This document shows, piece by piece, positions 3,602 through 15,348 of a DNA stretch of 64,000 nt. Each line of letters begins with the position of its first letter. Position 1 is the first letter of the stretch. A program made the position numbers and the translations under genes. The notes beneath the pieces are model-generated. The model did no database searches. It saw only the letters and a program-made list of their open reading frames with translations, and was not told the DNA's origin. Where the stretch lies: NCBI RefSeq assembly GCF_900115105.1, contig NZ_FOYP01000001.1, positions 1-64,000 on the forward strand, written 5' to 3'. This DNA comes from Yoonia tamlensis. Lineage in GTDB: Bacteria; Pseudomonadota; Alphaproteobacteria; Rhodobacterales; Rhodobacteraceae.

Positions 3602-4211
3602 TGCAATCAAATTGGACGGCAAAGCTGCTGGTTCCGTCGAACTGAACGACGAAATCTTTGGTCTCGAGCCGCGCAAGGACATCTTGCACCGCGTTGTGCG
3701 CTGGCAGCGCAACAAGGCGATGGCAGGTACGCACGACACGCTTGGTCGTTCGGAAGTGTCCTATTCGACCAAAAAGATCTATCGCCAAAAAGGCACCGGT
3801 GGCGCACGTCACGGTTCCCGTGGCGCGCCGATCTTCCGGTCGGGTGGTATCTACAAGGGTCCAACCCCGCGTAGCCACGCACACGAGCTGACAAAGAAGT
3901 TCCGCAAGCTGGGTCTGAAGCACGCGCTGTCCGCGAAAGTGGCCGCAGGCGAGCTGGTCATCATCGAAGACATCAACATCAAGGACGCGAAAACCTCTGC
4001 ATTGGCCAAACAGGTTGGTGCGCTGGGTTGGAAACGTGCGTTGATCATTGATGGTGCCGAAGTCAGCGCCGACTTCGCACGCGCAGCGGCAAACATTTCA
4101 ACCCTGAACGTTCTCCCTTCACAGGGTGCCAACGTTTACGACATCCTGAAGTCAGACACGCTTGTCCTGACCAAAGCAGGTGTCGCAGCACTGGAGGCAC
4201 GTTTGTCATGA
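3591..4211 (+). CDS. rplD: Ribosomal protein L4
   Basis: Large-subunit protein lining the exit tunnel; in enterobacteria it also represses its own operon. The start at 3591 gives a 206-residue product ([10 protein letters not shown]...) with the family motif [11 protein letters not shown], the basic loop [22 protein letters not shown], and the C-terminal Rossmann-like half. The frame stays open upstream, but the ATG at 3591 is preceded by GAGGGAGGCG and matches the usual N-terminus. It overlaps rplC by 11 bases and rplW by four (ATGA). Confidence 0.97.
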
Positions 4212-4504
4212 ACGCCAAAGCAGAACACTACGATGTGATCCGCAAGCCGATCATCACTGAAAAAGCGACAATGGCGTCAGAAGCCAATGCCGTGGTTTTC
4301 GAAGTGGCGATCGACAGCAACAAACCCCAGATCAAACAGGCCGTTGAAGCCCTGTTCGGTGTAAAGGTCAAAGCGGTCAACACGACGATCACCAAGGGTA
4401 AAGTGAAACGCTTCCGCGGTTCACTCGGCACCCGTAAGGACGTCAAAAAAGCATATGTTACCCTCGAAGAAGGTAACACAATTGACGTATCAACCGGCCT
4501 GTAA
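4208..4504 (+). CDS. rplW: Ribosomal protein L23
   Basis: Large-subunit protein at the tunnel exit that docks trigger factor and SRP. The 98 residues carry [15 protein letters not shown] at the start and end [12 protein letters not shown]. The start codon overlaps the rplD stop (ATGA). The C-terminal 11 codons have a diverged duplicate 760 bases downstream (5260-5295), which makes this gene's 3' end the apparent integration point for the YdeI-like gene. Confidence 0.97.
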
Positions 4505-4526
4505 GCTGTTTGAAGTGAATTGAGAG

Positions 4527-4555
4527 AGGCCCTCGCGATAGCGGGGGCCTTTTTT
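4527..4555 (+). terminator. Rho-independent terminator after rplW
   Basis: Ten-pair stem AGGCCCTCGC/GCGGGGGCCT with loop GATA, followed by a T-run. It ends the rpsJ-rplW transcript inside what is normally a continuous S10 operon. Confidence 0.9.
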
Positions 4556-4596
4556 GTTGTCTTGTCACTTTGGCGCGGGCTTTCTAGGCTGGTGAG

Positions 4597-5217
4597 ATGA
4601 TCACCGATGCAAATGATTTCTTTGTCAAAGGCTGCGGGCGCTGCGCCCGCTTTGACACGCCCGATTGCGCGGCCATGATCTGGGCAGAGGGGTTGGCGCA
4701 GCTGCGCGCGATCTGCCTTGATGCAGGGCTGTCAGAGGTCGTGAAATGGGGCCACCCTTGCTATATGCATGCGGGCCGCAACATCGCGCTGATCGGTGCG
4801 TTTCGGGGTGATTTCCGGTTTACCCTTATGAATGCGGGCCTGCTTAAAGATCCCGAAAGGGTGCTGGAAAAGAACGGCCCCAACACCGCCACGGCCAGCG
4901 TGATCTACCTGCGGTCGCTGGCTGATGTGACGCGCCTGCGCCCCGTGATCGCCGCCTATATCAGCGAACTGAAATCCTATGCCGAAGCCGGGGTCAAACC
5001 ACCCAAAGTGACCCGCGAATACGAAATGCCTGAAGAACTGATTGCCGCGCTAGACGATGACCCCGAACTGTCCGAGGCCTTCCACGCGCTCACCCCCGGT
5101 CGCCAGAAAAGCTATGTGATCAACCTCAACAGCGCCAAACAATCCGCCACAAGGATAAACAGGATTGCGAAGTTTCGGGATAAGATACTGGAAGGAAAAG
5201 GCGCGCTGGAGCGGTGA
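4597..5217 (+). CDS. YdeI/OmdA-like protein (DUF1801 type)
   Basis: 206-residue cytoplasmic protein. The N-terminal 120 residues have the DUF1801-like pattern (SEVVKWGHPCYMHAGRNIALIGAF, then FRFTLMNAGLL). The C-terminal part (EMPEELIAALDDDPELSEAFHALTPGRQKSYVINLNSAK) is the OmdA/YdeI segment of bacteriocin-protection-like proteins. The biochemical role is not established; related proteins are linked to resistance to polymyxin or bacteriocins. The gene sits alone between the rplW terminator and a duplicate of the rplW 3' end, so it appears to have arrived as a separate unit. No clear ribosome binding site precedes the ATG. Confidence 0.82.
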   Translation: MITDANDFFVKGCGRCARFDTPDCAAMIWAEGLAQLRAICLDAGLSEVVKWGHPCYMHAGRNIALIGAFRGDFRFTLMNAGLLKDPERVLEKNGPNTATASVIYLRSLADVTRLRPVIAAYISELKSYAEAGVKPPKVTREYEMPEELIAALDDDPELSEAFHALTPGRQKSYVINLNSAKQSATRINRIAKFRDKILEGKGALER

Positions 5218-5259
5218 GGGGCATCTGAAAAATGCAATGAGGCTGCTGATGCCCATGGA

Positions 5260-5295
5260 GAGGGGAATACAGTCGACATCTCGACTGGCCTGTAA
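5260..5295 (+). pseudogene. Duplicate 3' end of rplW (remnant)
   Basis: Read in frame this encodes EGNTVDISTGL plus TAA, against [11 protein letters not shown] plus TAA at the end of rplW. I count 27 of 36 bases identical, with most differences at third codon positions. That pattern is expected of a once-functional copy from a diverged relative, not of a recent local duplication. No clear homology continues upstream towards the YdeI gene. The bases after the stop also resemble those after rplW (a shared GAATTGA and a related hairpin). Confidence 0.85.
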
Positions 5296-5317
5296 ACCCG
5301 TCAGATAGAATTGAAGA

Positions 5318-5348
5318 AGACCTCCGCAGAAATGCGGGGGCCTTGTTG
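5318..5348 (+). terminator. Decayed terminator copy after the rplW remnant
   Basis: AGACCTCCGCA, loop GAAA, TGCGGGGGCCT. One A-C mismatch and one wobble interrupt the stem and the T-run is broken to TTGTTG. Its position relative to the remnant matches that of the rplW terminator relative to rplW. It may still stop transcripts from the YdeI-like gene. Confidence 0.65.
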
Positions 5349-5377
5349 CACGTAAGGATTGCATCAAGGGTGATGCC

Positions 5378-6997
5378 GTGCCACTTTGGAAGAAGGTTAC
5401 TTTCGCATTTTTTGGGGGCAAGGTATTGAGTGAACTTACAATTCGTTCTCTTATTGAGCGCGTAGCATCTGGAGATATCCGCATCCCGGCGTTTCAGCGC
5501 GATTTTGTGTGGGACGCTGATCAGATTGCCTTCTTGATAGACAGCATTTACAAGAACTTCCCAATAGGGACAATCGTATTTTGGCAAACTGACCAGCGCC
5601 TAAACACGGAAAAAAAGCTGGGTGCATTTGAACTGCCAGAGCCCAAAAGGGACTATCCTGTTAACTATGTGCTCGATGGACAGCAGCGCCTAACTAGTAT
5701 TTTTAGCGTATTTCAAACTGAATTGACACCTTCTGACACCGAATGGGTTGATATATACTTCGACCTCGAGGCAATAAATAATCCGCAAGACACCTCCTTT
5801 TTTGCGCTTGAAAGCAGTGAGGTTGATCACGCCCGCCATTTCCCTATTAAGTCATTTTTCGATACTGTTGCTTACAGAAGGGCTACGGCGAGTCTAACAG
5901 AAGACAAAGCCGAACTGATTGACGGTGTGCAAGCGAAGTTCAAAGAGTACCGCGTGCAAAATCAAACATTTGAAACGCAGGACCGCAACGAGGTCGCGAT
6001 CGTCTTTGAGCGCATTAACCGGGCAGGTACAGAGCTTGATTTATTCGAGCTATTGGCTGCGTGGAGTTGGTCGGACGACTTCGACTTAATAGATAAATTC
6101 AGAGAATTGCAGGATAAGATAGCTGATCACGGGTTCGAAGATCTGACTGAGGAGCGAGATCTCCAATTAAGGACATGTGCTGCTGTGATCACAGGCGAAA
6201 CGTCGCCCAATAAGATTCTTGACCTACAAGGTGAGGACATTCGATCCCGCTTTGTTGAAATTGAGGCTGGAATTCTTGGAGCCATAGATTTTTTGAAACG
6301 TGAGTTGGGTGTCGTCCACTTCAAGATGTTACCCTTTCCGGGGATTCTTGTGCCGCTTAGCACATTTTTCGCGACTAAACGAAAGGATGGAATTAATTAT
6401 TCTGATTTGCAGCGACAGATGCTGGTTAAATGGTTCTGGCGATCAGTATTTACGCGGAGGTTTTCCGCTGATGTTAGCGAACGGCAGGCAAGCGATATCC
6501 GTGAAATGAAGCGCCTCCTGGACAACGAAAACCACAAGTTTAGATTTCCAAGTTTTGAAGTTAAGTTTGACTTTAGAAAAACCCGTTTCTCCATAGGTAC
6601 CGCGAACTCAAAGGCACTGGTCTTGATGCTTGCAAACAACAATCCGCATTCATTCTTGAGTGGCGCGAAAGTTGATGCCGCTAAAGTGCTCAAGAAAGGT
6701 AGCCGGCATGAATTCCATCACATCTTCCCGCGTAAATATCTAGAAACGCTGGGTATTGAACCAAAGGACATTAATTCGTTGGCGAATATCTGTTTTCTTA
6801 CTAGAAGTGACAACAATGCTATTAAGGCCAAGTCCCCCGAAGTATACTTTGAAGATATGGCCGAAAGCACTCGGAATGAGTATTTGAAGCAAGCGCTTTG
6901 TGATTACGGTGACCGCAATGCTTCGTATGAGGACTTTGCGAACTATCGGTCTGAGCGGTTGCATAGCTTGGCGATACGCTTGGCCGACGCAGAGTAA
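5378..6997 (+). CDS. DUF262-HNH protein (GmrSD-like defence type)
   Basis: 539 residues with the two-part layout of GmrSD-related proteins. The N-terminal DUF262 (ParB-like nucleotide-binding) region has IPAFQRDFVW at residues 36-45 and LDGQQRLTS at 99-107. The C-terminal HNH-type nuclease region has HEFHHIFPRKYL near residue 444, followed by SLANICFLTRSDNNAIKAKSP. DUF262 proteins with such nuclease ends restrict modified or invading DNA, and many sit in defence islands. The GTG start is supported by AAGGG seven bases upstream; an internal TTG is possible. The gene is A+T-richer than its neighbours and stands alone inside the ribosomal cluster, consistent with transfer. The target is unknown. 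Confidence 0.85.
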   Translation: MPLWKKVTFAFFGGKVLSELTIRSLIERVASGDIRIPAFQRDFVWDADQIAFLIDSIYKNFPIGTIVFWQTDQRLNTEKKLGAFELPEPKRDYPVNYVLDGQQRLTSIFSVFQTELTPSDTEWVDIYFDLEAINNPQDTSFFALESSEVDHARHFPIKSFFDTVAYRRATASLTEDKAELIDGVQAKFKEYRVQNQTFETQDRNEVAIVFERINRAGTELDLFELLAAWSWSDDFDLIDKFRELQDKIADHGFEDLTEERDLQLRTCAAVITGETSPNKILDLQGEDIRSRFVEIEAGILGAIDFLKRELGVVHFKMLPFPGILVPLSTFFATKRKDGINYSDLQRQMLVKWFWRSVFTRRFSADVSERQASDIREMKRLLDNENHKFRFPSFEVKFDFRKTRFSIGTANSKALVLMLANNNPHSFLSGAKVDAAKVLKKGSRHEFHHIFPRKYLETLGIEPKDINSLANICFLTRSDNNAIKAKSPEVYFEDMAESTRNEYLKQALCDYGDRNASYEDFANYRSERLHSLAIRLADAE

Positions 6998-7129: not shown

Positions 7130-7203
7130 ACTCGGGCACCTACGGGGGCCTATAACATCGGGGTCTGGCAACAGGCCCTCCTAAGCAAACGGAAGAAGCT
7201 AAC

Positions 7204-9838: not shown

Positions 9839-9873
9839 TTTTCGCTTAGCGAAATTCACTGTCTAGAAATATG

Positions 9874-9907
9874 AAAGCCCCCGCTGAGTAATCTGCGGGG
9901 GCTTTTT
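9874..9907 (+). terminator. Rho-independent terminator after rplP
   Basis: Perfect eight-pair core GCCCCCGC/GCGGGGGC with loop TGAGTAATCT, A-tract before and TTTTT after. It ends the rplB-rplP transcript before the inserted block. Confidence 0.92.
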
Positions 9908-9934
9908 GTATTTCGGGATATGAAATTCCCGCTG

Positions 9935-10735
9935 CTAGAACCGCACAACGCTGGTCGGCGTGATCCGGTAGACTTCGGCGGCCAGATCGTTGTTTTCCAT
10001 AAACCGCGCGATTGATCCGAATGTCGCGGTGGCGACGTTCGGGCCGTGGTCGGCGGTGGTCAGGGCTTGGGATGCGACAGTCGCAAAGGCGCGTTGCAAC
10101 CCGTTGACCGCGATCGGTTGCGGCACGAAATATGCGGCAGTGTTGGCTTTGATCTGGTTCAGATCATCGGTGTCATAAAGCGCAGCCATCAGCACATTCA
10201 GCGTATGTTCGGTGCAGTTTTGGAACCGGTTGGTATTGGGGTTCGAAAGCGCGGAATAGACCGGATTGTGCAGCGCTGAATAGGTCGGGCTGCCGATCAC
10301 ATCCAGCAGTTTGGTCTGCAGGCGCGGGTCAGGGATAATGATGCCAGCGTCGAACACATGTGCGCCGGCAAAGAAATCTGCGGGGCTGTCTTGGACCAGA
10401 TCGCTGCGCACGGGGTTATCGGCCTGTTGGTACAGGTTATAGACGCGGTAGCCCTGTCCGGTGCTGCCGTCTGCAAGGGTAATCCGCGAATAGACCCAAA
10501 TGCCGACATGGGTATAGGTCACATCATCGGGTAGCTGTGCAGGGTCGCGCCCGACACGGGCAACAATAGCGACACGCGCACCACGCGCGGCAAGGTCCTG
10601 TTGCACGCGGTTTGCAAAGCTGGCGACTTGATCCGCGGGCAGAATAGCAACGCCATTGGCGCTGCTTCCGGCCTGTGCTTGCATTGGCGCGGTGAGCGTG
10701 GTGGCAAGCAGGCATGCTGAAATGAAACGTTTCAT
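9935..10735 (-). CDS. DUF2145 family exported protein
   Basis: 266 residues with an N-terminal signal peptide (MKRFISACLLATTLTAPMQA), so probably periplasmic. The mature part matches the DUF2145 pattern: THVGIWVYS, YRVYNLYQQADNP...SDLVQDSPADFF, then FQNCTEHTLNVL with a cysteine. The function of the family is unknown. I chose the ATG at 10735 because AGGCGG lies nine bases upstream; an ATG at 10744 has no spacing for it. It is second in a two-gene unit with the small lipoprotein gene (13 bases apart), both probably read from the promoter at 11077-11105. Confidence 0.82.
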   Translation of the reverse strand: MKRFISACLLATTLTAPMQAQAGSSANGVAILPADQVASFANRVQQDLAARGARVAIVARVGRDPAQLPDDVTYTHVGIWVYSRITLADGSTGQGYRVYNLYQQADNPVRSDLVQDSPADFFAGAHVFDAGIIIPDPRLQTKLLDVIGSPTYSALHNPVYSALSNPNTNRFQNCTEHTLNVLMAALYDTDDLNQIKANTAAYFVPQPIAVNGLQRAFATVASQALTTADHGPNVATATFGSIARFMENNDLAAEVYRITPTSVVRF

Positions 10736-10748
10736 GATGATCATCCGC

Positions 10749-11042
10749 CTATTTCAACACAGGCGGGCCATCGGGCGCCGGTAGTGGGATGATATAGGTG
10801 CCATCGGGGCCATAGGCGGCATCAGCCAGCCCTGCGCCGGAAACTGTAAGCACGGTGCCCGCAGCCGTAAGCGGGGCCGCGCTGACCAGTGCCGCGCCGG
10901 TTCCAACGGCGGCGACGCTGTGCCCCAGTGCGTTGCCGCTATGATCAACGGCTTGCGCGGAATGCTGTGCGCTGGGTGTGGCGCATGCGGCGGATAGTGC
11001 AAAGACGCCAAGGATAATTGACTTGGGTAGAAAGCGTTTCAC
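10749..11042 (-). CDS. Small lipoprotein-like membrane protein
   Basis: 97 residues from a GTG at 11042, which has GGAG six bases upstream. The N-terminus is a short basic stretch and a hydrophobic helix ending ALSAAC, a loose lipobox (cysteine near residue 21). A second Ala/Gly-rich hydrophobic stretch (VAAVGTGAALVSAAPLTAAGTVL) follows. Longer readings starting upstream run back through the promoter and operator region, so I reject them. The family is not recognised. It sits upstream of the DUF2145 gene and is probably co-transcribed with it. Confidence 0.7.
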   Translation of the reverse strand: MKRFLPKSIILGVFALSAACATPSAQHSAQAVDHSGNALGHSVAAVGTGAALVSAAPLTAAGTVLTVSGAGLADAAYGPDGTYIIPLPAPDGPPVLK

Positions 11043-11049
11043 GAGAGTC

Positions 11050-11080
11050 TCCAATTCATGATCAATGTTCATGAATTGGA
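11050..11080 (-). promoter_or_regulatory. Perfect 12-bp inverted repeat over the -10 region
   Basis: TCCAATTCATGA and its exact complement, separated by seven bases. It covers the -10 box and start of transcription proposed for the lipoprotein-DUF2145 unit, so it is a good repressor site. As RNA it would pair with the GGA of the ribosome binding site, an alternative mode of control. Confidence 0.6.
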
Positions 11081-11105
11081 TAGAGCGCAAAAACCATCTC
11101 GTCAA
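11077..11105 (-). promoter_or_regulatory. Promoter of the lipoprotein-DUF2145 unit
   Basis: On the minus strand: TTGACG (11105-11100), 17-base spacer, TATCCA (11082-11077). It is flanked on both sides by palindromes. Confidence 0.6.
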
Positions 11106-11113
11106 CAAAAAAA

Positions 11114-11126
11114 TGAACGGCGTTCA
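11114..11126. promoter_or_regulatory. TGAACG palindrome upstream of -35
   Basis: TGAACG-G-CGTTCA, a perfect 13-base palindrome of the kind bound by TetR-type regulators, just upstream of the -35 box. No regulator gene is adjacent. Confidence 0.45.
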
Positions 11127-11139
11127 CGAATTTTGGCGA

Positions 11140-11760
11140 TTAGCCCCAGCTATAATTAAAGCTGACAGAAATACGTTCGTCTTCTTCGGCCATGTTCATC
11201 GGCACCTCGTGGCGCAGCCAGCTTTCCCACAGCAGCACATCACCCACGGCGGGTTTGATATAGATGAACGGGCGCAATTCTTCGCGCGCGCCTTTGGTGC
11301 GGGTGGGGGCGGCCATCATCATAGGCAGGCGCGGGTCCTCGAGCTTGAGCGCGCTGGCACCTTCGGGCATGGCGACATAGGTTGTCCCCGAAATCACCGA
11401 ATGCGGGTGGATGTGGCTGGTGTGAATGCCACCCGGCGGCAGGATGTTGATCCAGATATCTTCAAGTTTGAGTTCCTTATCCCCAAGATCGAATTCCAGA
11501 TCCTTGGCAAAGGCGGCAACATGCGCATCCAGCACTTTGACCAGATCGGCAAAAATCGGAAACCGCCATGGCAGATCCGTCAGCGATGCATAGGACGTAT
11601 AGCCAGGATAGCCGTGTTCGTCGCACCAGCTCTGGCCGGCCTCGTCATCATCGGCGATCACAAGACAGGAATTTTCCAGCTCGACGGGGTCAATAGCCCC
11701 ATGTGCGGACAGGCTGGCGTGATAAAGGCGGGTCGCAAACAGCGATTTGATATTGGACAT
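11140..11760 (-). CDS. TIGR02466-type 2OG-Fe(II) oxygenase-like protein
   Basis: 206 residues. The pattern fits the TIGR02466 family of putative 2-oxoglutarate/Fe(II) oxygenases: NILPPGGIHTSHIHPHSVISGTTYV supplies the metal-binding histidines, and WLRHEVPMN...ERISVSFNYSW supplies the distal histidine and the 2OG-binding arginine. The substrate is unknown. A TTG would extend the frame to 11832, but the ATG at 11760 gives the expected MSNIKSLFATRLYHASL start. No strong ribosome binding site. Divergent from the LysM gene. Confidence 0.75.
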   Translation of the reverse strand: MSNIKSLFATRLYHASLSAHGAIDPVELENSCLVIADDDEAGQSWCDEHGYPGYTSYASLTDLPWRFPIFADLVKVLDAHVAAFAKDLEFDLGDKELKLEDIWINILPPGGIHTSHIHPHSVISGTTYVAMPEGASALKLEDPRLPMMMAAPTRTKGAREELRPFIYIKPAVGDVLLWESWLRHEVPMNMAEEDERISVSFNYSWG

Positions 11761-11892
11761 GCGCGCAGCATACTTCAGCCGCAAATCAAGCGCGAGCAAA
11801 ATTGCACCGCCATTCTGACGCGGCGTTAACAAAGATGGATCACAGGAAAACCATATTTAGCGGCTAAACGCGGGGCAGAAGTGGAGATTCTT

Positions 11893-12969
11893 ATGAACAG
11901 ATTACTACCAGTATTGGTGACAGCGGCGGCCGGTTTGGCTGGCAGCTCTGCCTATGCGCAAAGCATTGCGTGCGGCGAAACATATACCATCCAACGCGGC
12001 GACTACCTGTCGACCATCGCGCAGCGCGCCTATGGCGATCTGGGTAGCTTTAACCTGATCTACAGTGCCAACGTTGATGTGATCGGGCCAAATCCGGGCG
12101 CAATCAAGGTCGGTGACGAACTGGTGATCCCTTGTCTTGATGGTGATCTGGGTGAATCGCAATCGAATGCGTCCATTATCCGCGATGTTGAAACCACCGA
12201 ACAGCTGCCTGGTCCGTCGGGTGATCGCCCGATCCGCGTGTTGACCGCGACAGGCTGGGCGCCGTTTATGGACGAAGATCAGGAACAAGGCGGCCTGCTG
12301 ACCGAGATTATCAACCTTGCGCTGGAAAATGCGGATGGCAAGCCGGCCTATCAGATCGACTTTATCAATGATGATGGGGCGCATTTGCAGCCGCTGATCA
12401 CCGACCACGCCTATGACATCAGCATCGGCTGGAGCCAGCCAAACTGTGAAATCATGGACAAGCTGGAAGATGAATCCAAATTCCGCTGCAACAACCTGCT
12501 GTTCTCTGATGCGATGTACGAAGAAGTGCTTGGTTACTATAGCCCTGCTTCCGACGCGCCGATGACCGACCATCAGGAACTGGTCGGCAAACGCATTTGC
12601 CGCGCAGAAGCCTATACACTGGCCCCATTGGAAGAGGTCGAACTGGTCGAGCCGACAATCACCATTGTACGCGCGCCAACTTCGGCGGACTGCATGAACT
12701 TCCTGCTGGAAGGTAAAGCCGATGTCGCGCTTGTGGCCATCGACGTAGCAACCGGCCGGATCAGCGAACTGGGCGCGGGCGACCAGATCCAGATCCATGA
12801 TCCGCTGACCTATGTTGACGTGCTGCACGCTGTTATCGCGCAGACACACCCGCGTGCCGAAGAAATTCTGGCCGAGGTCAACAGTGGTCTGGCCAATATC
12901 AAAGCGTCAGGCCTGTGGTTTGAAACCGTGCGCCGTCACATGACAGCCTTCCGCGCGCTTAGCCAATAA
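11893..12969 (+). CDS. LysM domain fused to a solute-binding protein
   Basis: 358 residues. A signal peptide (ending SSAYAQ) is followed by a LysM peptidoglycan-binding module, about residues 30-78 (YTIQRGDYLSTIAQRAYGD...NLIYSAN...IKVGDELVIP). Then comes a family-3-type periplasmic solute-binding domain (IRVLTATGWAPFMDED... to the end). The fusion would anchor a binding protein to the cell wall, or sense a small molecule there; the ligand is unknown. The ATG at 11893 is chosen because GTGGAG lies seven bases upstream. No permease or ATPase gene is adjacent, which argues against a standard ABC importer. Confidence 0.82.
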   Translation: MNRLLPVLVTAAAGLAGSSAYAQSIACGETYTIQRGDYLSTIAQRAYGDLGSFNLIYSANVDVIGPNPGAIKVGDELVIPCLDGDLGESQSNASIIRDVETTEQLPGPSGDRPIRVLTATGWAPFMDEDQEQGGLLTEIINLALENADGKPAYQIDFINDDGAHLQPLITDHAYDISIGWSQPNCEIMDKLEDESKFRCNNLLFSDAMYEEVLGYYSPASDAPMTDHQELVGKRICRAEAYTLAPLEEVELVEPTITIVRAPTSADCMNFLLEGKADVALVAIDVATGRISELGAGDQIQIHDPLTYVDVLHAVIAQTHPRAEEILAEVNSGLANIKASGLWFETVRRHMTAFRALSQ

Positions 12970-12990
12970 TCCGCGCGACACCATGCAAGA

Positions 12991-13022
12991 AGCCCCCGCT
13001 TTGACTGGCGGGGGCTTTTTTT
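12991..13022 (+). terminator. Rho-independent terminator after the LysM gene
   Basis: AGCCCCCGC paired with GCGGGGGCT around an eight-base loop, followed by a run of Ts. It lies between convergent genes and may also serve the opposite strand. Confidence 0.92.
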
Positions 13023-13027
13023 GAGAC

Positions 13028-13912
13028 TTACTTCTTCTCGGGATGCAATGACGCGCCCAGAATATGGTCGGAATGCTGGACCGCATGTGACGCGTGCAGA
13101 ACGATCTTGGGGTCAGGCGCGGTGGCGACAGCGGGGTCTTTGTCCGGATAATCCAGTTGCGCCAAGAAATGCCGCATGCAGTTCAGCCGCGCGCGTTTTT
13201 TGTCGTTTGAGCGGATCACAGTCCACGGCGCGTCAGCAGTGTCAGTGTAAAAGAACATCGCTTCTTTGGCTTCGGTGTAATCATCCCAGCGGTCGATGCT
13301 GGCGCGGTCAATCGGCGATAGTTTCCACCGTTTAAGCGGATCGGTTTCGCGCGATGCAAACCTGTTGCGCTGTTCTTCTTGGGTGACCGAGAACCAGTAT
13401 TTGAACAGTGTCACGCCGCTGCGCACCAGCATGCGTTCAAATTCGGGGGTCTGGCGCATGAATTCGAGATATTCGTTTGGCTCGCAAAAACCCATCACCC
13501 GTTCGACACCAGCGCGGTTATACCAAGACCGGTCATACAGCACCATTTCACCCGCCGTCGGCAAATGTTTGATGTAGCGTTGGAAAAACCACTGGCCGCG
13601 TTCGTTGTCGGTCGGTTTGTTCAACGCAACAACCCGCGCGTCACGCGGGTTCAGATGTTCGGTAAACCGCTTGATCGTACCGCCCTTACCAGCCGCATCG
13701 CGCCCTTCGAACAGCATCACCACTTTTTGTCCGGTTTCTTGAATCCAGTGCTGTGCCTTCAGCAGTTCAACCTGCAGTGCGGCTTTTTCGTCTTCATAGC
13801 GCTTGCGGGGCAGGCGGCGCGCATAGGGGTAAATCCCGTCCTCGAACCCGATGATCTCGGCGGTGCGGGCTTTTGGTGCGGGGGCGGTTTTTTGCGTCGT
13901 GGTTGCTGGCAT
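13028..13912 (-). CDS. ppk2: Polyphosphate kinase 2
   Basis: Transfers phosphate between polyphosphate and nucleoside diphosphates, usually making GTP or ATP from polyP. The 294-residue product carries the Walker A motif FEGRDAAGKGGTIKRF, the lid region and the Walker B segment YDRSWYNRAGVERVMGF, which identify a one-domain PPK2. The ATG at 13912 is preceded by AAAGGAGAC. It stands as a single gene within the block between rplP and rpmC; a TTGACC-17-TGGTAC promoter candidate lies at 13951-13979 on the minus strand. Confidence 0.95.
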   Translation of the reverse strand: MPATTTQKTAPAPKARTAEIIGFEDGIYPYARRLPRKRYEDEKAALQVELLKAQHWIQETGQKVVMLFEGRDAAGKGGTIKRFTEHLNPRDARVVALNKPTDNERGQWFFQRYIKHLPTAGEMVLYDRSWYNRAGVERVMGFCEPNEYLEFMRQTPEFERMLVRSGVTLFKYWFSVTQEEQRNRFASRETDPLKRWKLSPIDRASIDRWDDYTEAKEAMFFYTDTADAPWTVIRSNDKKRARLNCMRHFLAQLDYPDKDPAVATAPDPKIVLHASHAVQHSDHILGASLHPEKK

Positions 13913-13950
13913 AGTGTCTCCTTTTGCGTTTACACAAAGTGAAACACGAC

Positions 13951-13979
13951 GTACCAATCCTGTCGTTGATATGGGTCAA
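13951..13979 (-). promoter_or_regulatory. Candidate promoter of ppk2
   Basis: Minus strand: TTGACC (13979-13974), 17-base spacer, TGGTAC (13956-13951). The -10 is a weak match. Confidence 0.4.
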
Positions 13980-14079
13980 GGGGGGGGCAGCGGTTTTGAT
14001 GTCAGGACCAAATGAAACTCGACACTATATCATGCACGCCAATCATTGACACGCATGCGAGCACGAGGCAGTCGGGGCT

Positions 14080-14667
14080 ATGTTTAACCGAAATCAACTT
14101 TTACGTTTGCTTTTTGCTATGCCTTTGGCTGGCTGTTCAATAGGGGGCGCAACAATCGGAGACGCGCCAGTTAGAGCAACTCAACTGCGAAGTTCTAGCA
14201 TTACAGTTTTGTCTGCCGAGTGGCAGGATGAATTTGATCTTCGATACAATTACGAAATTATTAACAATGGCAATCAGCCTATGTGCTTCATTGCCGTTCA
14301 CGAGGGTACGGGGGAAATACGACTACCAAACATACTTGAAGTAATTCGCAACGAGATAGGGCAGCCAATCGAATTGGGGCGTGGAGATCCGCTTCCCGAA
14401 ATGGTGAGCGAGGGATTCGTGCCCGCTCAGAGCGTGCTGGTTGTCGAGCCTGGAGAACGCATTAGGGCCGAAGGCTTACTTCTTGGAGATGTACTACCGG
14501 CGGGTAATGAAGGACAGCCAATCTCTTTATCGTTGACAGCGCAGCCAGTACATTGTGTTTCCAGCACATCTGAACAAGCCTCGTTGGAGGCGCTTTCGTC
14601 AGGCCCTGCTATAGTGCATCTTACGCAAGCCCATAAACAATATGTGCCGACCGCAGCGGCAAAATAG
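14080..14667 (+). CDS. Unrecognised lipoprotein
   Basis: 195 residues with a clear lipoprotein signal (MPLAGC, cysteine about residue 19), so likely membrane-anchored and facing the periplasm. The rest looks beta-rich, with no transmembrane helix and no motif I recognise. The DNA is more A+T-rich than the ribosomal genes. It is convergent with the next unknown gene; the two may have entered together. No firm ribosome binding site. Confidence 0.65.
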   Translation: MFNRNQLLRLLFAMPLAGCSIGGATIGDAPVRATQLRSSSITVLSAEWQDEFDLRYNYEIINNGNQPMCFIAVHEGTGEIRLPNILEVIRNEIGQPIELGRGDPLPEMVSEGFVPAQSVLVVEPGERIRAEGLLLGDVLPAGNEGQPISLSLTAQPVHCVSSTSEQASLEALSSGPAIVHLTQAHKQYVPTAAAK

Positions 14668-14710
14668 TCGTACCTGCAAAAAAAAGGCCAGCCCCCTTGC
14701 CACTCAGCAT

Positions 14711-15109
14711 TCAACGCGGGACGCTTTGCACCCAATAGGCTGATGGTATTGTTATTTGCATTAAAGTCTTGTTGCCGACTGATGCTGCAAGATCTCTTTT
14801 TGCGTCAAGCTCATTATCATATATGCCGCCAACAATGCTCCAACACCAATACTCATCGTCGTGATCGCAAGCCTCGGGATTCGTTCCGGTATAGTAGCCA
14901 CTCCAAATCTCGATCCAACCGGCCGGGCGCTGAACTATTGCCGCGTGACGAGGAAGGTCGTCACTAGACACATGAAACAATTGTAAAATTGGATGATCGG
15001 GATGTCTGGGTAATGTCGGTCCGCGTTCTTCGATGTCTAGCGGCTTTATATCGCTATCAGGTTCATAAGCGCTGGGCCTTTTCCACAAAAGATTTCTTAA
15101 TAGCTTCAT
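14711..15109 (-). CDS. Hypothetical protein
   Basis: 132 residues from the ATG at 15109 (MKLLRNLLWKRPS); a GTG at 15160 would add 17 residues. It is soluble-looking and acidic in the middle, with many Trp and Tyr (GWIEIWSGYYTG, DDEYWCWSIVGGIYDNELDAK). No domain is recognised. It is A+T-rich relative to its neighbours and convergent with the lipoprotein gene, from which 43 bases separate it, with no clear terminator between them. Confidence 0.55.
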   Translation of the reverse strand: MKLLRNLLWKRPSAYEPDSDIKPLDIEERGPTLPRHPDHPILQLFHVSSDDLPRHAAIVQRPAGWIEIWSGYYTGTNPEACDHDDEYWCWSIVGGIYDNELDAKRDLAASVGNKTLMQITIPSAYWVQSVPR

Positions 15110-15239
15110 GACGGAACCCAGAGAGAATGAAAGACCGATAGAATGGGTATATTGTGCCACGATGACAACCGGCGGTCATAGAGTTAGGCGCCACTTGTGG
15201 GCTCTGCCGGAAAAGTAGCCATTGTGTCTGCTAAACCCC

Positions 15240-15268
15240 TTGTCACACGGTCGCATCCCCCCTATACG
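15240..15268 (+). promoter_or_regulatory. Promoter of the rpmC block (spc operon)
   Basis: TTGTCA at 15240-15245, a 17-base spacer ending in six Cs, TATACG at 15263-15268, then GCCCAC. It restarts ribosomal transcription after the block inserted behind rplP. The leader is about 75 bases. Confidence 0.7.
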
Positions 15269-15348
15269 GCCCACTTCTACCCCACTCCATCGGGAATCGG
15301 GTCACGCACGTGTGCGGCCTGCCGGTGATGTTGAAAAAGGAAAATGGC

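Follow-up and report, generated by a model that had tools for sequence, protein, structure and literature searches.

Displaced rplW 3' ends at the rplW-rplB junction of Rhodobacteraceae: an original gene end pushed downstream in Yoonia tamlensis

In the alphaproteobacterium Yoonia tamlensis, the 3' end of the ribosomal protein gene rplW appears twice, once at its proper place and once more behind a YdeI-like gene, which raises the question of which of the two ends is the original one and how the other came to lie beside it. The stretch of DNA analyzed here, referred to as the window, comprises positions 1 to 64,000 of contig NZ_FOYP01000001.1, and all features of the gap between rplW and rplB lie on its plus strand. 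The rplW gene (4208 to 4504; Pfam Ribosomal_L23) encodes an L23 protein 99% identical to that of the nearest named locus, Yoonia sp. I 8.24, and is followed by its current terminator (4520 to 4560), a hairpin of -26.9 kcal/mol with a T run. Next come the YdeI-like gene (4597 to 5217; DUF1801 and OmdA by Pfam), the second rplW end (5256 to 5295) with its own UTR and terminator (5296 to 5348), and a GmrSD-type (DUF262) gene (5378 to 6997) of uncertain start codon, which matches Pfam GmrSD_N at 3.4e-30 and GmrSD_C at 0.0018, the latter under the cut-off. The right boundary of the gap is formed by the L2-Alphaproteobacteria ribosomal leader (7134 to 7201; RF03142, 56.6 bits against a gathering value of 37.8) ahead of rplB (L2; 7204 to 8046). 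This leader family stems from a computational survey, where the L2 candidate carries a question mark (PMC7247131). The original prediction spoke of an insertion inside the S10 operon; the operon cannot, however, be regarded as intact at this point, since in this family rplW has a terminator, rplB has its own leader and almost every relative has an open gap between the two.

The existence of a second rplW end is well supported. Positions 5260 to 5295 translate into EGNTVDISTGL followed by a stop codon, and 27 of these 36 bases are identical to the current rplW end, with 7 of the 9 differences at third codon positions, exactly as had been predicted. Against a profile of rplW C-termini the remnant scores 52, while the best score in 906 kb of dinucleotide-shuffled gaps is 24.8 and none reaches 25. 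Likewise, when the last residues plus stop codon of 67 open reading frames (ORFs) of the window were sought up to 6 kb downstream of each, rplW gave the sole clear match (score 53; next ORF 28; shuffled maximum 27). Moreover, the homology is longer than originally stated, as the similarity to a sister species extends over 5256 to 5348 and thus covers gene end, UTR and terminator. The displaced terminator, predicted to be a decayed copy, is so only in part: its hairpin can still be folded (-18.7 kcal/mol), and its T run is interrupted (CCTTGTTGC). Beyond the remnant, a weak repeat of 19 nt (4555 to 4573 and 5371 to 5389, 79%) is too short to weigh. A chance resemblance, or a piece of a real gene, might be suspected because the match first described spanned only 36 nt and three minus-strand ORFs overlap the remnant. 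The latter is a mechanical overlap, the ORF list of the window holds no plus-strand ORF of at least 50 aa across the remnant, and the absence of shuffled matches at the threshold together with a UTR homology that goes on into the sisters refutes this reading, which we regard as almost certainly wrong.

Which of the two ends belongs to the vertical lineage is decided by the untranslated region and by a few diagnostic sites. With positions 5218 to 5400 as query, all of the 14 best matches listed are current rplW ends of sister species (L002, L003, L007, L130 and L005, under several locus ids), and the matches run through UTR and terminator, the best of them being 83% over 94 nt to L002 (E 7.6e-20). 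On the contrary, the current UTR (4505 to 4600) retrieves, among the 14 matches listed, terminator-like pieces of 28 to 56 nt from its own and other genera, and none from these five sisters. UTR scores to the three nearest species are 57, 53 and 54 for the remnant versus 30, 34 and 33 for the current end. If the coding end is added to the query (4430 to 4600), the sisters are again the best matches (about 80% over about 130 nt), and when coding end and UTR are taken together the scores of the two copies hardly differ (remnant 103, 103 and 108; current end 99, 103 and 98), because the current gene, too, has a mostly vertical coding end. Within the last 40 nt, the five sisters agree with one another and differ from the current rplW at three sites (-16, -13 and -10 from the stop), and the remnant carries the base of the sisters at all three. 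A tree of 104 columns places the remnant on the side of the sisters and the current end elsewhere, with a support of 82/94 that lies below the mark set by the tool. Taken together, UTR scores and diagnostic sites show that the remnant is the lineage's own original rplW 3' end with UTR and terminator, pushed downstream, and that the present tail, UTR and terminator entered with the YdeI-like gene from outside. The rplW gene of the window is consequently a hybrid of vertical body and imported tail, the switch lying somewhere between about 4444 and 4489 (-61 to -16 from the stop). A tandem duplication of the rplW end that arose locally in a single genome, followed by divergence and involving no import, would suit an rplP case from another locus (L134), whose two ends share their type and hardly differ in sequence. 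For the window it is largely refuted and considered very unlikely, as it is the current tail that is non-vertical and the cargo is not duplicated.

These results bear out the proposal that foreign DNA recombined at the end of the gene, restored it and displaced the old end; the check named with it, namely which end groups with the vertical rplW lineage, favors the remnant by UTR and three sites. Two further expectations were borne out in part. The remnant orders the YdeI unit relative to its neighbor and yields no date; the GmrSD-type gene, which occupies the rplW-rplB gap beyond the remnant, is the older neighbor. As to the empty site, the current ends of the sisters match the remnant, and a full empty site, with the GmrSD gene and devoid of YdeI, was not found when the GmrSD protein was searched in the 55 other genomes of a sample of 56 from the GTDB genus of the window (the window's own included): the single match was 33% identical and located elsewhere. 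YdeI itself is present in the rplW-rplB gap of 5 of the 23 genus genomes with a YdeI match (homologues in the gaps of G004, G032, G002 and G020), and in G012 a homologue lies about 3.5 kb past rplB, probably in the gap between rplP and rpmC. Since GmrSD is a nuclease family by name, a homing-type element could be considered, in which rplW is cut by a nuclease and, during repair, receives a recoded end together with the nuclease gene; the anatomy is that of a fungal mitochondrial case (PMC3630166). There, however, the nuclease is located between the two ends (PMC3630166), a position held in the window by YdeI and not by the GmrSD-type gene, and no protein from a first gap unit matched a nuclease when scanned. 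Homing by the GmrSD gene was hence rejected, and homing in general is judged highly improbable.

The setting of this event is a junction that is conspicuously open. Among 106 distinct Rhodobacteraceae loci, 99 have an rplW-rplB gap of at least 200 nt (median 1700, maximum 5347), while the seven other junctions from rpsJ to rplP never exceed 143 nt (77 to 107 loci each). In Alphaproteobacteria outside the family the gap measures about 2 to 39 nt in 28 of 28 loci, taken from the top-ranking of 114 genomes with an rplB match after the window and one relative had been set aside. Within this sample the junction is thus open only in Rhodobacteraceae. Gene turnover between the two fixed core genes is high, a feature of hotspots devoid of mobile elements: 96 gaps contain 211 ORFs of at least 80 aa, of which 150 have no relative in another gap, spurious frames being counted. 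A family scan covered 137 of the 170 ORFs of at least 110 aa. Among the families listed (25 of 80 for Pfam), fatty acid desaturases (8), DUF2200 (4), sulfotransferases (3), Hint (3) and YceI (2) recur, and the defense proteins listed (25 of 73) include OLD, AbiP2, AbiU, SoFic, TIR and PD-T4-6; the last units of the gaps include TIR, kinase, HATPase and SMR proteins. No integrase family occurs among those listed for these 137 ORFs (25 of 41 PHROG and 25 of 80 Pfam families), where transposases with 2 members are the only recombinases, and 17 gap proteins scanned singly gave no match to a nuclease or recombinase family, 7 of them matching nothing at all. A composition rule for first and last units was tried and abandoned: GC content is slightly lower towards rplB than towards rplW (46 of 73 loci, P 0.001), a trend too weak to build on.

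Several observations were made alongside. In the window, a Stealth-type gene (1361 to 2317; Pfam Stealth_CR1 and CR2) lies between tuf and rpsJ, so that this junction is open too, and about 5.5 kb of other genes (9839 to 15310) separate rplP from a gene that is probably rpmC (L29), another opened junction, at which the relative L134 carries a displaced rplP end. In five loci, L127, L131, L133 and L143 (genomes G025, G016, G011 and G037) as well as L128 (G040), the genes after rplW are unrelated chromosomal ones, and rplB lies on a different contig (G025, G016, G037), on the same contig in opposite strand (G011) or was not found (G040); in G011, genes presumably corresponding to rpoA and rpsK stand reversed about 10 kb after rplW. 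The rplW-rplB junction thus also looks like a rearrangement breakpoint. In G043 (L138, 948 to 17701) about 17 kb separates the two genes, a stretch that encodes a 2862-aa protein and contains secretion-system-like genes. Units adjacent to rplB in L123 (gap positions 1385 to 1650) and L062 (2225 to 2450) have broken frames that are HNH-like by eye, parts of which were scanned with no match, and the first units of L062 (203 to 568) and L123 (162 to 584) each contain a small minus-strand gene, similar by eye and not linked by blastp at 1e-6.

Displaced rplW ends are not a peculiarity of Y. tamlensis. They recur in Rhodobacteraceae, sometimes two or three per gap, and one case concerns rplP. Of 109 distinct loci in which both rplW and rplB are present, 16 carry one to three displaced rplW ends, 21 in total and all on the coding strand, two being marginal (L071, score 25.1; L091, score 27.7), whereas none occurs in the 17 loci with no rplB in reach. 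The choice of loci is biased, as 80 were chosen for their rplW being closest to that of the window (the top 80 of at least 570) and others come from its genus. Four regions were added because a genome sweep had flagged a second match in them: L152 is among the 16, two duplicate L098 and L053, and in L151 rplB is not in reach; with L152 omitted, the count is 15 of 108. Left out were L126, whose contig has only the rplW end, and the flagged genomes G334 and G413. A cruder sweep of the family, which misses the window's own remnant, found a second match at E of at most 0.01 in 6 of the 354 genomes with any match (394 searched). As a control, copies of each gene's own C-terminus were counted at a score of at least 30, which gave 15 of 126 for rplW, 0 of 126 for rplD, 3 of 105 for rplB (all with the same weak score of 31), 1 of 42 for tuf (weak, 32) and 1 of 92 for rplP, a strong one (123). 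The possible displaced tuf end (GHRHGDVGVLSKIVK plus stop codon, score 32), about 1 kb downstream of tuf in L033, is too weak to count. In the rplP case (L134), gene end, UTR and terminator are repeated 1.6 kb downstream, behind a glycosyltransferase-61 gene, with 197 of 200 aligned columns identical (about -133 to +67) and decayed homology back to -333; given that both ends are of the same type, it gives no demonstration of tail import. The notion that ends of ribosomal genes act as landing sites, with neither a tRNA nor a visible integrase, thereby gains support from 15 further rplW loci and one rplP locus.

Individual loci differ in what they reveal about the order of events. Octadecabacter locus L062 has two remnants and one close relative, L039, whose current end scores 125 with the outer remnant, 64 with the current end and 59 with the inner remnant of L062, as expected if two additions had occurred since the split; the comparison provides an independent confirmation. 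In L078 the match of the remnant to the closest two or three relatives is no worse than that of the current end, and the same applies to L152 except for the third relative, while L053, L123 and L140 give mixed results. In the remaining 9 of the 16 loci with remnants, it is the current end that lies closer to the nearest relatives. This lends no support to displacement, although decay of old remnants alone would give the same. An rplW tail that diverges faster than the body of the gene was considered as a family-wide sign of tail swaps and dropped, because the pairs had been chosen by the rplW body itself: 22 of 29 such pairs show it (P 1.8e-4), as against 20 of 29 when pairs are picked by rplD (P 0.11), the window and L062 being positive as single cases.

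Cargo moreover changes its position. In Ruegeria, a unit of rplW end, MarR and YceI heads the gap in L078 and is second, behind a displaced end, in L091, and a unit of rplW end, desaturase and remnant heads L091 and is displaced in L083. In addition, L083, L067 and L123 have an outer remnant in a better state than the inner one, which speaks against a simple stacking with the newest unit always next to rplW. Both this and the unit placement in L078 and L091 are expected of repeat-driven exchange and tentatively suggest an integrase-free cassette system, in which each added gene end with terminator would serve as homology for the next cassette, such that the array may grow and shuffle between genera. 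A particular form of such traffic, in which two gene ends recombine, a circle of cargo plus one end comes free, and one homologous crossover, whether at an rplW end or at a remnant, brings it back in, would account for the same cargo in different gap positions and hosts and for outer remnants that are sometimes the better preserved. It is nonetheless rather unlikely, for no circle was seen, the first displaced end is left unexplained, and repeats of 100 to 180 nt are short for frequent RecA exchange.

The borders of the remnants bear on how the first displacement took place. Sixteen borders, a manual selection among the 21 remnants, range from -36 to -104 relative to the stop, a spread of about 70 nt with no one fixed core; too decayed or gapped to enter were L067@758, L072, L071, L081 and L083@1246, and L083@2549, with a range of -76 to -94, was entered as -90. 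They are nevertheless clustered, as 7 of 16 fall within 7 nt (-72 to -78; P 0.019), and units tend to end shortly past a stop codon. In one case, by eye, the motif GCCAG is common to L078 and L091 near the joint. This clustering, a restored gene end with the old end displaced in direct orientation as the classic outcome, and the known integrative and conjugative elements (ICEs) at 3' ends of ribosomal genes (PMC4701971) speak for site-specific integration. In this view the 3' end of rplW would contain an attachment site for small elements, each bringing a replacement end, and the tyrosine recombinase that integrated them would have acted in trans or would have been lost since. We consider this unlikely, because the borders spread over about 70 nt versus streptococcal direct repeats of 12 to 54 bp (PMC4701971), the families listed for the gap ORFs contain no integrase, and the units are mostly single genes, the one in the window consisting of YdeI with no recombinase gene.

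Instead, import of linear chromosomal DNA, anchored by RecA in rplW and accompanied by displacement of the vertical end, is the favored explanation, with a probability of roughly 0.55. It is favored by the match of the window's remnant to the sisters' ends, by the Octadecabacter comparison, by the Ruegeria units found at different depths of the gap, by the recurrence of remnants on the coding strand, by the variable borders, by the 17 gap proteins with no nuclease or recombinase match, by uptake genes and by the gene transfer agent of R. capsulatus. ComEC- and DprA-family genes are present in the genome of the window, an unspecific sign given that they were matched in 10 and 11 of 14 control genomes, respectively. 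The agent of R. capsulatus carries pieces of about 4.5 kb and requires Com, DprA and RecA (PMC9690577). A segment of linear chromosomal DNA from a relative would thus arrive via a gene transfer agent or natural transformation, and RecA-type homologous recombination would anchor it in conserved rplW sequence. Its other end would be joined inside the 3' end of the recipient's rplW by a short-homology joint (homology-facilitated illegitimate recombination) or, alternatively, by a repeat-based one, with the imported tail keeping L23 intact. After the first displaced end, the cargo would be flanked by two gene ends of about 100 to 180 nt, a usable homology for later exchanges. Cargo would be tolerated at this place, lying as it does between the terminator of rplW and a leader that belongs to rplB. 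Counted against import by RecA are the clustering of borders, the unit ends shortly after stop codons and the better-kept outer remnants, and neither a donor nor a joint sequence was seen.

The displaced end is of wider interest, as half of the transfer hotspots in a large survey were devoid of evidence for mobile elements and their entry route was left open (PMC5635113). It constitutes a readable scar from which the new end, the sequence of unit arrivals and the imported tail can be told, so that single events of gene arrival could be put in order and counted even where no integrase is involved. A further suggestion is that the arrival of cargo gives an essential ribosomal gene a foreign tail. 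Since the gap holds single-gene defense systems besides metabolic genes, it is a place to seek new defense systems; and if the cassette-system reading is true, arrays would grow and shuffle between genera in the absence of a dedicated recombinase.

Literature searches, judged by the listed results, found no description of rplW-rplB insertions or displaced ribosomal gene ends in Rhodobacteraceae, and the hotspot survey has no word match for ribosomal operons or Rhodobacter (PMC5635113). In fungal mitochondrial mobile ORFs (Allomyces atp6; Glomus atp6, atp9, cox2 and nad3), as at rplW, a foreign tail is in use, while the native tail lies downstream, matches close relatives and has the cargo in between; the event is driven there by an endonuclease ORF as cargo, whereas the rplW units are ordinary genes, bacterial and stacked (PMC3630166). 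Mobile-element-free hotspots share the high turnover between two core genes with no mobility gene, for which recombination in the flanks was proposed; that model swaps alleles between flanks, while rplW units are added and leave displaced ends (PMC5635113). Streptococcal ICEs at rplL, rpsI and rpmG likewise use the 3' end of a ribosomal gene and keep it intact, but they are integrase-borne, conjugative and bounded by direct repeats of 12 to 54 bp, in contrast to single-gene units with variable borders (PMC4701971). Homology-facilitated illegitimate recombination resembles the proposed route at rplW in having one homologous anchor, one illegitimate joint and linear DNA, yet it usually pairs an insertion of about 1 kb with a similar deletion, whereas recipient sequence is retained at rplW (PMC3240628). 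In pneumococcal merodiploids made by transformation, imported DNA leads to tandem duplication via alternative pairing and unequal crossing-over at repeats, the duplications measuring about 100 to 900 kb versus about 100 to 200 nt at rplW (PMC3784515). None of these systems, as far as they are described in these sources, unites the stacking of added units, a varied cargo of ordinary genes and the displacement of gene ends in bacteria; the fungal mitochondrial case is the nearest parallel in anatomy, the integrase-free hotspots are the nearest in setting and the streptococcal ICEs the nearest in the choice of site.
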